A stretch of DNA of 64,000 nucleotides from NCBI GenBank assembly GCA_036872755.1, contig JAVHNS010000001.1:2666001-2730000 (forward strand). The letters are read 5' to 3'. The notes beneath the pieces are model-generated. The model did not search any database. It was given only the letters and a program-made list of their open reading frames with translations, and was not told the origin of the DNA. Both the position numbers and the translations under genes were made by a program. Shown here piece after piece: positions 10,386-18,942 of this stretch. Each line of letters opens with the position of its first letter. The first letter of the stretch is position 1. Origin of the DNA: Orbilia blumenaviensis. Taxonomy: Eukaryota > Ascomycota > Orbiliomycetes > Orbiliales > Orbiliaceae.

Positions 10386-11038
10386 CTTCTTTCTTTCTAG
10401 AGGGTCTTAGTTACGTTTGGGGTGATATTTGATGTACAGTTTGATTCGGACAAAGCTTTTTTTTTTTTTTTTTTTTTTTTTTTGTGGTACTTACTCCATG
10501 CATAGTCAGGCTTCTTGGGTTTCCGTTTAGGCCCATGCATATATGCATACCTAATGAAGTCTGTAGGATGGCAGAAGATGCTTTCAACTCCAAAGTGCTG
10601 AGCAATTGAAGTCGAAGTAACAGTTATTGATAGAAGGAAAGATTACGCATTGATCTGAAGCTTCAGATCTGCGTAATTCCTAATATATATTCTGGTTTCT
10701 CAGCTCTTCCTTTCTTTTCTTTCTTTCTTTCTTTCAACCTTCACTGCTGCCCCCACAACACGACAACACATTTTTGCCACAGTCGCCTGTGTTACCTTTT
10801 TTAGCACTGCGGCTTTCCCATCCCCAGAACGAACGACCAGAAAAAAAAAAAAAAAAAAAGCTCCGTCCTTTGGACATCACCAGCACCATCGACTGCTTCG
10901 GACTTCTCCCCTCTGAACATCGATCCCTCTTTCTCTCTCCCCGGTTGCCCGCTCTATTCAACATCTTGTTGTTGAATCTCCCGTTTTCTTCTCTTTCTTT
11001 TTTCTCGTCGCTGGCGTCTTTTCCTCCCAACGTTCAAG
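10386..11038. promoter_or_regulatory. Shared upstream region of trm9 and the ubiquitin protease gene
   Basis: A 650-bp divergent intergenic region. It contains a T tract of about 25 (10459-10483), a CTTT-rich stretch (about 10705-10735), an A tract of about 19 (10841-10859), and a pyrimidine-rich leader running into the ATG at 11039, a common fungal promoter/5'UTR texture. The hairpin core seen downstream is absent here. Confidence 0.5.
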
Positions 11039-12792
11039 ATGTCGCTGAAGGTGCTGCTTTCGCAGCCAATCTTGTTCGTCCCAGAATCGACCACACAAAC
11101 AACACACGCGCCTGGCGCCTCTGTGTCTGTCCCTGTGCCCCCCCGATTCTCCCCGGACTCTGAGCAGAAGTGCGTGTCTGCTCTGTCGAGTCTTCTCTCG
11201 ACTTTTCAAGAAAGTCGGGCTTCGGCCACTGCGCTGTCGAGCCCGCTTTCGAGCGCGAAAAGTCTCTCTCCCCCTCGCACTCCTGTGCGTGCCCCCTCCA
11301 GTGAGGCATCGGCCATTGCGCTGTCGAGCCCACTGTCCAGTCTGAGGAGTATTACTCCTCCAGTTTCCCCAGTCCCCGTAAGACGGTCACCGGCCATTGC
11401 GCTGTCGGGACCGCAGGGTAAGGCTAATGCTTCGACGGTTAGGGCCCCGTCGTCTCAATCGTCCGCTTCTGCCTCTTCGACTTCGACATTTTTGTCGTCG
11501 TCGTCGGCTGGAAGAAGTGGTTCGTATGAGACTTCGCCGTCCGTACCGAAGAAGCGGGATTATGAGGCCACTGCGCTGTCTCAGTCCCATGACGGGGAAA
11601 GGGCCGCCAAGAGACGTAAGGTCTCTTTGGACGCCCGGGAGGGGATCCCTGACGTAAGTACTTCCTCCTTCCCTCCAATTTGATACCATTCATTTTGTAA
11701 AATATACAACAAAGTCACTGACAATTACTTTGCAATATATAGCCGGCAATCCAAGCCAGAGGATTTAAGAATTCGTCTGGTGTGCATTGCTACCGCAATG
11801 CCAGTTTGCAGGCTCTGGGTCATATCCCCGCCTTCCGAGAAAAGATTCGGAAGCACAAGTGTAAGTCGAACGGCCCACCCCTCTTTTTACCTCGTATCAG
11901 GAAGGGGGAACAGGACTAACACTAGATTAGGTAGCCGTGCCGGATGCATAGCTTGTGTTCTCCGTGTGGCTTTCCGCGAGCATTTCGCTCGCCACGGTGC
12001 AAGGCTCCCTTCCCACGAACCGAGGGGACTACAGGCTATTTCGCGGTCTCTGGGCCCGAAGTTCGCCGAAGGGCGCCAACAGGAGGACGCCCAGGAGTAC
12101 ATCGGGCTGCTTTTGGACCGGTTGGCAGAACGGTGTGACCCGGGGTATGTACATTCTCTACTTGCTTTCGTTTTTATAATTAAAAGTGACATGCAAACTG
12201 ACTCTTCTTCTTCGTATCATTTAGAAGCTCTATTAAGAGAGCTATCCCCAAGATCTTCGGGGCATCGAAGATCTCAGAGGTCGAGTGCGTGGCCTGCGAA
12301 AAGGTCACTACGTCCAAGAGCACTGACGACTTGCTCGTCATGCTCAATCTGCCACAGGGGCAGAAGCGACAGAGGATTTCCCTCGAGGATTGCCTCGAGG
12401 AGTACACTAAGGAGGAGGTTATCAGGGATTATAGGTGTGAGGCGTGTAGATGCTGTGGGATCAAGAAGAGGGTCAGATTTACAACCCCTCCCAAGGTTGC
12501 ATTGATGGCTCTCAGCCGGTTCGACTTTATGGGTCGAAGGGACAATCGTGAGGTGTCCTTCCCAGAAAAGTTGAACTGGAACAGCTACACGAAGGGGTGG
12601 ACTGGGTCGAGTGAGCTGACGGCTGTTATTAGCCATGTATCAACCAAGGCATCATCTGGTCATTACACTGCGTTTCTTAACGCTGGTGGTGGTCAGTGGC
12701 TTCAGTATGACGACGGGCGGGTCTCGACGTGTAGGAGCCCTACAAAGTCTCAGTTATCAAGAGCGTACCTTCTCTTATACTCGCAGCTTTGA
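11039..12792 (+). CDS. Ubiquitin-specific protease (peptidase C19, USP36/42-like) with hairpin-encoded N-terminus
   Basis: Cysteine protease that removes ubiquitin from proteins. Exons 11039..11653, 11743..11860, 11931..12144 and 12225..12792 total 1,515 nt (504 aa). Residues 1-205 (exon 1) are low-complexity S/P/A sequence with four repeats of A-[I/T]-A-L-S, each encoded by a stem-loop element. The catalytic domain starts at GFKNSSGVHCYRNASLQAL (Cys box, catalytic C in HCYRN), then QQEDAQEYIGLLLDRL, a zinc finger made of CVAC and CEACRCC, KVALMALSRFDF, and the His box SGHYTAFL with QWLQYDDGRVS. The catalytic Cys and His and the conserved box residues are all visible, so it is probably active. 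The Cys box is less canonical than GLxNxGNTCYxN. It ends LLLYSQL, as USP domains do. The hairpin array begins 50-60 bp after the stop. Confidence 0.9.
11208..11592 (+). repeat. Four covarying stem-loop elements inside exon 1 of the ubiquitin protease
   Basis: Copies of the downstream array element with cores at 11224, 11311, 11392 and 11566. Distances are 87, 81 and 174 bp, all multiples of three, so all four are read in one frame. Loops are CA[C/T]TGCGCT. Each has its own complementary arms: copy 1 CGGGC..CGGC/GTCG..GCCCG; copy 2 CAGTG, GGC, TCGGC against GTCGA, GCC, CACTG; copy 3 CGGTC and CCGGC against GTCGG and GACCG, with one bulged A; copy 4 GGGA, TGAGGC against GTCTCA, TCCC. Because stem sequences differ but pairing is kept, structure rather than sequence appears to be selected, even within a coding exon. 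Confidence 0.85.
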
Positions 12793-12845
12793 GGCACCCG
12801 CGCGGAGAGACTAACTGTTGCTCTGCTTGCAGTTGTTCGCTTTTA

Positions 12846-15064
12846 TCAGTCGGAGTCCGGCCATTGCGCTGTCGGAACCGTCCGTTTCTCCCCGTAAGTC
12901 AGAGCTTGGTCATTGCGCTATCGAGCCTGCAGGGTATGTCTCGAACCCTCCCAGTAAGACGGGGTCTGGTCATTGCGCTATCAGAACCCGCGGGGACCCT
13001 TCCTCACACCTATTGCATCTGCCATGCATGCCCCGTAAGACGGAGTCCGGCCATTGCGCTGTCGGAACCGCAGGGCTTCCAATTTCTCCCATAAGTCACG
13101 GCTTGGTCATTGCGCTATCGAGCCTGCAGGGATTCCCTGATCTCCCCGTAAGTCGGAATCTGGTCATTGCGCTATCAGTACCCGCTGGGTTCGTAAGTCG
13201 ACGTCCGGTCATCGCGCTATCGGCATCGCAGACTTCTTTATTATGTTGTCGTCCCCGTAAGACGGAGCCTGGTCATTGCGCTATCAGCACCCGCTGGGTT
13301 TAGTACTCCTCCCCATAAGACGAAGCTCGGCCATTGCGCTGTCGAGATCGCAGGGTCCATTCACTTTGCACACGCACGTTTAAGCTGGTCATTGCGCTAC
13401 CAGCTCTGCAAAGTCGCTTCTGCCCCTCAATCCTACATCTACCCGAGTTACGAGATTGCCGTCCGTTTATTCAGTCAGTCCCGTAAGTCGAAGCTCGGCC
13501 ATTGCGCTGTCGAGATCGCTGGGTTCATAAACTGGAAGCTGGCCATTGCGCTGTCAGTTCCTTGTTATCTCGTTTGCCAGAAGACGAAGTCCGGCCATTG
13601 CGCTGTCGTTCTCGCCGGCATTCCAACCTCGTACTCATGGTAGATCAGTGGCTGGTCATTGCGCTATCAGCCCAGTTGGATTGCCCTAAGCCCGGTGTCC
13701 CGTCCTCATATCCGTAAGCTGGAGTCTGGCCATTGCGCTGTCAGAACAGCTGGATCTCGCCACGCCTTTATTCTCCAAGGAACCCATGTCTGGCCATTGC
13801 GCTGTCGGTCTTGTAGGGTTCCCCGCCACCTGCTATCTCGTCTATCCGTAAGCCGGAGTTTGGCCATTGCGCTGTCAAAACCGCCGGATCCCTTCCACCT
13901 GTTATTTCGCCTATCCGTAAGACGGAGTCTAGCCATTGCGCTGTTAGAACCGCAGGATCCGTTCAGTCTTTACCGCCTGTGTCTGGCCATTGCGCTGTCA
14001 GTCTTGTAGGGTCTCTTCTCGTCCGCTTTTCTCGTTCTTCCATAAGCCGGAATCTAGCCATTGCGCTGTTAGAACCGCAGGATCCGTTGTCTCACCTTCC
14101 GCATAACCCGTGTCTGGCCATCGCGCTGTCAGTCTTGTAGGGTTAACTTCCGCCTCGTTCGATCGCCCTCCATCCTTAAGTCGAAGTTCGGCCATTGTGC
14201 TGTCGTTCTCGCGGAATCCGTTGTCGCGCTACTCCCCGTAAATCGGCGTCTGGTCATTGCGCTATCAGAACCGTGGGTCCCATCCACTATCGATCGCCTC
14301 TTCTTAAGCCTGAGTTCAGACATTACGCTGTTGAGCTCGCAGCTTGTCTCGCCCCCCCGTAAGTCAGAATCTGGCCATTGCGCTGTCAGTACCTGCAGGG
14401 CTACCGTTCTTTCATATAGAGTATTGTTCTCCTATAAGACGGAGTCTGGCCATTGCGCTGTCAGAACCGCCGGGTCGTCTCTATATTCCAGTTACCGTTC
14501 CCATAAGTCGTACCAGCCATTGCGCTGTTGGTCACGCAGGGTTCCATTCCCGTTGTTCCCAAGACTTTGTAGATGCCCCTACAATGTTATTCGCCCGTAA
14601 GACGGAGTCTGACCATTGCTCTGTCAGCACCCGCAGGGCTGTCGTTAGTTGTGCAGCATACCTTCCTTCCACCCTGTAAGACGGGGTCTGGCCATTGCGC
14701 TGTCAGCACCCGCAGGGTCGTCGTCAGTTGTCCAGAGAGAGTCGTTGTCCACCCATAAGACGGGGTCTGGCCATTGCGCTGTCAGCACCCGCAGGGTTAC
14801 CGTTACGTCGTTGCCATAAGTCGAACCCCGGCCATTGCGCAGTCGGGGTTGCAGGCATTGTCGTTCGAAAGTCCGGCCATCGTGCTGTCGGTCCCCTCAA
14901 GGCTTCCCGTTACCGAGATCCTTTCCTCACGCGCCGAATGCTGGTCATTGCGCTATCAGCATGGCAAGGTCACTCCTCATTACGTCAACGTCTACAATCC
15001 CGCAACGTCAATTTGCCCATAAGACGGAGTTCCGGTCATGGCGCTATCGTGCTCGCTGGGTTCC
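12846..15064 (+). repeat. Array of 34 directly oriented stem-loop elements with invariant loop and covarying stems
   Basis: Core consensus GGYCATTGCGCTRTC. Core starts: 12859, 12908, 12968, 13049, 13105, 13162, 13207, 13271, 13329, 13387, 13497, 13541, 13593, 13654, 13728, 13792, 13862, 13931, 13985, 14056, 14116, 14190, 14252, 14318, 14373, 14448, 14515, 14611, 14690, 14769, 14830, 14875, 14943, 15034 (spacing 44-110, mean about 66 bp). Core position 3/13 is C/G in 22 copies and T/A in 11; one copy (14318) mismatches. Position 1/15 is G/C in 30 and A/T in 4. The inner stem has about 6 bp around a 9-nt loop, then an AG/A internal loop, then an outer 3-bp helix seen as CGG/CCG, CGA/TCG, CAG/CTG, CTG/CAG or CGT/ACG. 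A conserved YRTAAG precedes and GCAGGG-like sequence follows. Spacers are mostly unique and pyrimidine-rich. Reading frame is not kept, so it is not coding. Confidence 0.9.
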
Positions 15065-15120
15065 TCCTCACCGCCATCCCTCACTTTGGTCACCTTCCAC
15101 GGCCTCCGCTGTTTTTAACG

Positions 15121-15719
15121 ATGTCGCAGATATGGGATCTTTACAGTTCTGGTCACGGTTATGCCATGCGTACGCATTTAGCCCCTGGAACCCGTTGAGA
15201 GAACAATAATCTGAATGAGAGTGTATTTTTTTCGCTCTTGACCTTGAAATCTTGTTATCTACGAAGGCAACCAACCGCATACGATCATCTCACGCAATCC
15301 GAACGCTCTTGGGAGAGAAAAACGAGCTGCTTGCCATATTTGAGCTTATACAAGGAGAAAGAATCATCACCGATGAAGAGTCACCGTCGTCGTTTCTCGC
15401 ATTCCAGGTTTTTACGCTTTAGAGCATTCATAAATATCTGGAATTTCGAGATAGACAGAGAATCCACACATGAATGGTATATCAGCTTTCTGGCGAAGCT
15501 GACGAGCGGAGAACAAGAAAACGAGCATTTTCCATCGAACCCGAAAGGCCAGCTACTGCTGCATCCGGGATATCCTCGAAGACGGAAAAGGAAGAACAAA
15601 GTCTGGACTGTCCTACATCCTCACTCACAACGAGAGAACCTACTCTCGATCTTCACCAGACAGAACCGCTCGAACGTGGGAGAACCAATGAACGTCCGAT
15701 GACAAAAAAAACTTGCTAG
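15121..15719 (+). CDS. Small hypothetical protein (tentative three-exon model)
   Basis: Not recognised. A model with exons 15121..15169, 15220..15407 and 15486..15719 gives 471 nt (156 aa): MSQIWDLYSSGHGYAM, then a helical-looking segment (SSHAIRTLLGEKNELLAIFELI), then a charged tail with RRTRKRAFSIEPERP ending TKKTC. The last junction keeps frame between SSFLAFQ and LSGEADERR. The second and third exons look coding by composition; the first exon and first intron are weaker and partly chosen to keep frame. It starts about 60 bp after the last hairpin, so it could instead be a distal part of the upstream transcript unit or a chance reading. Confidence 0.35.

Positions 15720-16600: not shown

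Positions 16601-18942
<2,342 letters not shown>

Follow-up and report, generated by a model that had tools for sequence, protein, structure and literature searches.

What purpose, if any, is served by 34 hairpins with one constant loop and differing stems lying directly behind the stop codon of a protein-coding gene? The question is raised by a locus of Orbilia blumenaviensis, a relative of the Arthrobotrys fungi, which trap nematodes. Its genome comprises 42.46 Mb in 23 contigs, and the window analyzed here is a whole stretch of 64,000 nucleotides (C1:2666001-2730000), from whose first nucleotide all positions are counted. The upstream gene, on the + strand at 11039–12792, was spliced by eye into four exons (11039–11653, 11743–11860, 11931–12144, and 12225–12792). 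Its 504-aa product is 100% identical over 504 aa to the hypothetical protein TWF730_000768 of Orbilia blumenaviensis and contains a UCH domain (E 3.7e-36), identifying a ubiquitin carboxyl-terminal hydrolase.

The array, at 12839–15064 on the + strand, is made of 34 hairpin units of ~45 nt each with pyrimidine-rich spacers of 0–61 nt (68% C+T). It begins 47 bp beyond the hydrolase stop at 12792, its first core lying 67 bp beyond, on the same strand. Downstream, the intergenic stretch is bounded by a convergent gene on the − strand (16715–17529) with fragments of a V/A-type ATP synthase subunit. Thus, the array occupies most of the first 2.3 kb past the stop. We propose, with a probability of roughly 55%, that the array acts in cis as a sense-strand RNA element of the 3′ UTR of the hydrolase mRNA and is a candidate protein-binding platform.

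A preliminary description of this stretch had counted 34 core copies, all on the + strand and 44–110 bp apart, with a loop that is exact in 26 copies. All of this was reproduced: cores lie at 12859–15048, the spacing is as claimed, and CATTGCGCT is exact in 26/34, the remaining 8 loops being variants of it. Loop positions 1–3 (CAT) and position 8 (C) are invariant in all 34 units. The stretch noted at that time was incomplete, however, as four more copies lie in coding exon 1. When the core pattern was searched over the whole window with up to 3 mismatches tolerated, 42 matches were found against 3.9 (sd 1.9) in shuffles, namely 33 cores of the array, 4 in the coding sequence, and 5 at other, scattered places. 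The 34th array copy (14318) has 4 mismatches and was identified outside the pattern search by reading the sequence. The earlier text had mentioned 38 copies in passing and without positions; the extra four were found at 11224, 11311, 11392, and 11566, and are excluded from the array counts below.

The shortest spacings of 44–45 match the unit length. The unit consensus, condensed by hand, is CCCRTAAGNCGGAGTCYGGYCATTGCGCTRTCRGAACCGCAGGGT. It is predicted to fold into an inner helix, an AG/A internal loop, a CGG/CCG middle helix, and a CCC/GGG outer helix across an unpaired RTAAGN, of which TAAG is found in 23/34 units. The inner helix runs uninterrupted for at least 5 bp in 30/34 units, while swapped arms manage this in 42%; its uninterrupted length averages 5.65 bp, compared with 3.49 (sd 0.22) after arm swap. 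The longest uninterrupted inner helix, of 9 bp, is AACCCCGGC/GTCGGGGTT at 14830–14844. The most diverged unit, at 14318–14332 with the loop CATTACGCT, has a broken closing pair, and the rest of its stem is continuous (9 bp). Within the unit, conservation is highest in the loop, and similarity drops far once the unit ends are passed.

The stems vary from copy to copy in a compensating manner. The arms quoted earlier at 14830, 13387, 13654, 14943, and 13862 are all correct, and two pairs behave as had been claimed, pair 3/13 being matched in 33/34 units (C-G 22, T-A 11, one broken) and pair 1/15 in 34/34 (G-C 30, A-T 4). Covariation was counted in an ungapped alignment of 34 rows, 31 of which are distinct. 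Over the six inner pairs, 91.4% of 186 cells are paired, where shuffles give 77.2 (sd 1.6); doubly changed cells number 39, where shuffles give 12.6 (sd 2.7); and the covariation score of 0.576 compares with 0.298 after shuffling. None of 500 shuffles reached any of these values. In slid registers the score is only 0.03–0.24. Double-sided change is seen in 5/6 inner pairs. Two other statistics are not above shuffles, as the count of doubly changed pairs was matched by 130/500 and the number of pair types by 398/500.

Because shuffles are blind to relatedness among the units, arms were swapped between units and folding energies compared. Own arms give −8.0, against −5.80 (sd 0.27) for permuted arms, and no permutation among 100,000 was equally low. 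With a non-redundant set of 23/34 units, the energies are −7.92 and −5.72 (sd 0.33), respectively, with 0/50,000. When swapping was confined to the same 3/13 class, or to the same class plus the same neighboring base, 0/20,000 was obtained in each case. When each unit was swapped with the one of most similar flanks, the own arms were better in 22, equal in 8, and worse in 4 (n = 34, p = 1.6e-4). On a tree built from the flanks only, pair 3/13 underwent about 7 left-side and 6 right-side changes and broke once, and pair 1/15 changed four times per side and never broke. The middle and outer helices covary also when the inner helix is held constant (1/50,000; 25/50,000 in the non-redundant set), the middle helix doing so alone (7/50,000) and the outermost alone weakly (1356/50,000). 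The arm-swap results and the changes on the flank tree indicate that shared ancestry alone is insufficient for the stem covariation. The preliminary reading of a conserved loop with compensating stems thus holds, with covariation exceeding subfamily structure, and evolution seems to have maintained the hairpin shape as such.

The strand on which the hairpin is read can be told from its wobbles. Pair 2/14 is G.U (G.T in DNA) in 32/34 units, and among the other wobbles of the inner helix, G.U or U.G occurs 6 times and A.C or C.A never. Read from the − strand, the G.T cells become A.C mismatches, which fits an RNA transcribed from the + strand. The hairpin strand is the sense strand of the hydrolase gene, as these wobbles support.

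On the other hand, stability is ordinary when compared with dinucleotide shuffles, the mean z over the 34 units being −0.16 on the + strand and −0.11 on the − strand. In minimum-energy folds of 43-nt pieces, pairs 1/15 and 2/14 are both kept in 21/34 array units and in 3/4 coding copies. In local context, pairing probability exceeds 0.5 in 8/34 inner helices on the + strand (mean 0.31) and in 4/34 on the − strand (mean 0.19). The consensus fold is shallow at −4.33 kcal/mol. The hairpins are thermodynamically weak and may depend on a bound protein to stay folded.

The four further copies connect the array to the gene in front of it. All on the + strand of exon 1, they lie at 11224–11238 (protein SATALSSPLSS, loop CACTGCGCT), at 11311–11325 (SAIALSSPLSS), at 11372–11423 with the core at 11392 (VPVRRSPAIALSGPQG, the closest to the array consensus), and at 11566–11580 (YEATALS, loop CACTGCGCT). 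In one register, an array unit translates as PVRRSPAIALSEPQG, which is the upstream gene's own coding segment, and the third coding copy (11374–11418) is 91% identical over 45 nt to the array at 13031–13075. Each coding copy is able to fold into a 5′-bulged hairpin, the fourth via a different stem, TGAGGC/GTCTCA. All four have 5–6 bp, a 5′ bulge of 1–2 nt, and 3–5 further bp, where array units are variable. When each coding copy was synonymously resampled 5,000 times, 18, 127, 751, and 853 sequences were as stable or more; fold stability is therefore clear in two copies and weak in two.

A peptide like AIALSSPQG is kept in 5/6 orthologs (A. musiformis, O. javanica, A. megalospora, O. oligospora, and A. 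conoides) and is absent from the O. ellipsospora ortholog. The motif sits in an otherwise poorly conserved N-terminal stretch of the orthologs. Because of this conservation, the coding unit appears to predate the expansion, and duplication would more simply have run from the coding sequence to the 3′ side.

Such descent could also be accommodated by a neutral process acting on DNA, in which a coding segment became a tandem repeat and imperfect palindromes were repaired by replication template switching, so that the arms would match while having no role as RNA. Consistent with this, the unit co-descends with the coding segment, there are local duplications, most changed pairs are transitions, and, as described above, folding energies are ordinary. 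However, palindrome correction in DNA predicts perfect pairs, so that the G.U wobbles argue against it, both by their persistence at 2/14 and by their one-sidedness (6 versus 0). Moreover, a palindrome process does not protect the loop, which is nevertheless the most conserved part, with sequence outside the unit far less alike. We regard the neutral process as unlikely.

Another possibility is that the array belongs to a separate + strand long non-coding RNA or acts as a sponge titrating a hairpin-binding protein. The gathering of 34 similar sites and the gap of nearly 4 kb that separates the hydrolase stop from the convergent gene would suit such an RNA. Against it stand the onset of the array only 47–67 bp past a stop codon on the same strand and the presence of the same hairpin in the hydrolase coding sequence, which make an independent transcript quite unlikely.

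The partner of the loop could also be another RNA. Loops containing the palindrome GCGC (30/34) could kiss in cis or in trans and thereby condense or dimerize the mRNA, which would account for G replacing the A of the U1A site described below. The self-complementarity spans only four nucleotides, however, and GCGC is absent from 4/34 loops, whereas CAT, which is unnecessary for kissing, is invariant. An RNA–RNA platform thus appears improbable.

A known protein family has to be considered for the same loop. U1A hairpins (U1 stem-loop II and U2 stem-loop IV) have in common with the array the loop AUUGCRC, the U1 loop being also preceded by C, and the U1A 3′-UTR element is a U1A-binding autoregulatory site. 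The array differs from them in having G or T for the essential A6, in its 9-nt loop, and in its 34 units. The U1A/U2B″ family (Mud1/Msl1) might still use the hairpins as decoys or for autoregulation, their loop AUUGCGC being one base from the AUUGCAC site. In this genome, AUUGCAC is found in stem-loop II of 4/4 U1 genes and in stem-loop IV of 4/5 U2 genes, the fifth having one extra U, and protein homologs are present. Searching with human RRM1 gave two homolog loci, on C5 and C1, at E 1e-5 and no third. The C5 homolog (L018) has His (MRGQAHV) in place of Phe56 of U1A, and the C1 homolog (L019) retains Phe.

The base that differs speaks against this. At the A6 equivalent, 37/38 copies have G, one has T, and none has A, even though in the coding copies GCA and GCG would specify the same amino acid. 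For human U1A, changing A6 to any other base costs 6.3–6.7 kcal/mol of binding (PMC2203988). Given the A6 data and this genome's own U1 and U2 loops, mimicry of the U1A/U2B″ site is very improbable. The AUUGCAC site is absent from yeast U1, so that fungal Mud1 specificity can differ (PMC6325900), and loop-closing pairs matter for Drosophila SNF, a related protein (PMC5992148).

The snRNA genes themselves form loose clusters, four for U1 (L009–L012; C4 and C15) and five for U2 (L013–L017; C9). Among the U2 copies, the 5′ half of L017 has clearly diverged, and L016 is the one with the extra U in the stem-loop IV loop. Near a U1 gene (L010:2695-2782), a palindromic hairpin matches Rfam mir-7131 on both strands below the gathering score, and is probably a small inverted-repeat element.

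The array might instead be what is left of a protein-coding repeat by which the hydrolase or a neighbor was once longer. A 45-nt unit of 15 codons with register stops in only 2/34 units would fit, but this reading is largely refuted, and a decayed protein repeat ruled out, by the scatter of units over three frames (14, 11, and 9) and by third positions that are barely freer (variability 0.32 versus 0.26 and 0.29), with a stop depletion that is not significant (2 versus 4.5, p 0.13) and changes on both stem sides, amino-acid-changing sites included.

A protein search with one array reading frame gave a single match, P0021, whose E value of 1.6 is not significant alone. P0021 is a 142-aa translation from a 1,906-bp contig. 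When it was compared with the array by tblastn, the best match scored 48.9 bits with many further matches in all three frames, against 30.8 bits for the best of 200 shuffles and 16.5 bits for the reversed array. The unit and spacer at 14252–14310 (+ strand) align with P0021 as VNRRLVIALSEPWV..PSTIDRLF versus VNRSLVIAPSEPWV..PSGIDRPF. In one alignment, the unit at 14252 with its spacer and then the pair at 14769/14830 match consecutive portions of P0021 without a change of order; conservation of unit order is only suggested by this, as the repetitive array lets other stretches align too. By codon reading, the last loop nucleotide is C rather than T in three P0021 units. The peptides of P0021 fit the same stem pairs, which a translation cannot prove. 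Judging from these alignments, the P0021 contig carries an array related to that of Orbilia. When P0021 was the query of a protein search, only itself was returned.

Within the genome, no second locus was found by DNA search, in which 2 candidates were scored, or by exact 12-mer search. The latter returned seven other sites, each single, none of which has GGY..RTC arms and a paired 3/13. A dispersed or mobile palindromic element is thereby ruled out, these searches finding copies at one locus. At one of the seven sites, on C2 (L028, C2:2847330, − strand), the sequence GAGUGGA-CAUUGCGCUA-UCCGCUU forms a 7-bp hairpin with a nearly identical 10-nt loop. It is antisense to a mechanical reading frame and likely arose by chance.

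Rfam covariance models gave no match at gathering score in the window and none at E ≤ 1 over 11000–15200. Two exact cores in tandem were found at no locus in viral collections and at four bacterial loci in prokaryote collections, which were rejected as unrelated repeats. At one of them, in a Chlorobiaceae MAG (L022:197-280), CATTGCGCTGTC is part of a 24-bp tandem repeat unrelated to the fungal unit. At another, on the − strand of a Neobacillus contig (L020, 70–340), four near-identical copies include CATTGCGCTGTC in a different context and belong to an unrelated repeat family. A scan of the array region for bacterial promoters and terminators gave nothing useful. In a narrow search of open-licence literature, no paper on such a hairpin array, its loop, the species, or hairpins in its fungal group was found.

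Three known systems resemble the array in design. Engineered MS2/PP7 arrays combine a constant loop with varied stems at many 3′-UTR sites; the Orbilia array differs from them in being natural, in having another loop, and in having no coat protein. Introner-like elements of ascomycetes consist of numerous units that have GTAAG close to one end and a stem inside, whereas the Orbilia units are confined to one locus and do not conserve splice signals. Intron-like units (GTAAG...CAG) were ruled out, GTAAG being present in 13/34 units and CTRAY inside the unit in 1/34. The third system is the iron-responsive element (IRE), five of which, each 25–30 nt with the loop CAGUGH, lie in the 3′ UTR of transferrin receptor 1 mRNA (PMC4112806). 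As in the proposed platform, small hairpins of one constant loop on paired stems are gathered there in a single 3′ UTR. The IRE stem is interrupted by unpaired bases, as are the bulged stems of the coding copies, with array units varying in this respect. The array differs from IREs in loop sequence and size, in having 34 units rather than five, in its extra coding copies, and in having no known link to iron, and CAGUGH is found in 0/34 array loops. By analogy, the five-IRE 3′ UTR would be the closest operational counterpart of the array, although the loop sets the array apart from the IRE family.

Returning to the 3′-UTR element, we picture its origin and action as follows. The unit would have originated within the hydrolase coding sequence and then multiplied 3′ of the stop codon, and from its position and strand the array would be transcribed within the hydrolase 3′ UTR. 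Each unit would fold as an outer helix, an internal loop, a middle helix, a small bulge, and an inner helix of 5–6 bp, the last with a nearly fixed G.U wobble, a Y-R closing pair, and the 9-nt loop CAUUGCGCU. Most likely, one putative RNA-binding protein reads the loop and the wobble. The 34–38 sites could then serve as a multivalent platform setting the stability, translation, or location of the hydrolase mRNA.

In its full form, in which a hairpin latent in the coding sequence was duplicated beyond the gene's stop codon into a conserved 34-site array that controls its own mRNA through a new loop-reading protein, the scenario is put forward tentatively and is somewhat doubtful as a whole. If true, it would mean a new RNA family and a new route from coding sequence to 3′-UTR regulation. 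As a proposed type of 3′-UTR hairpin platform, the array stands a fair chance of constituting a new RNA family. With 34 adjacent units, a single genome gives enough compensatory changes for testing an RNA structure without many species. If the proposed 3′-UTR platform is real, the array would provide a bait for a fungal loop-reading protein and a naturally occurring equivalent of engineered hairpin tags, and it would be an example of coding sequence seeding an untranslated regulatory RNA.
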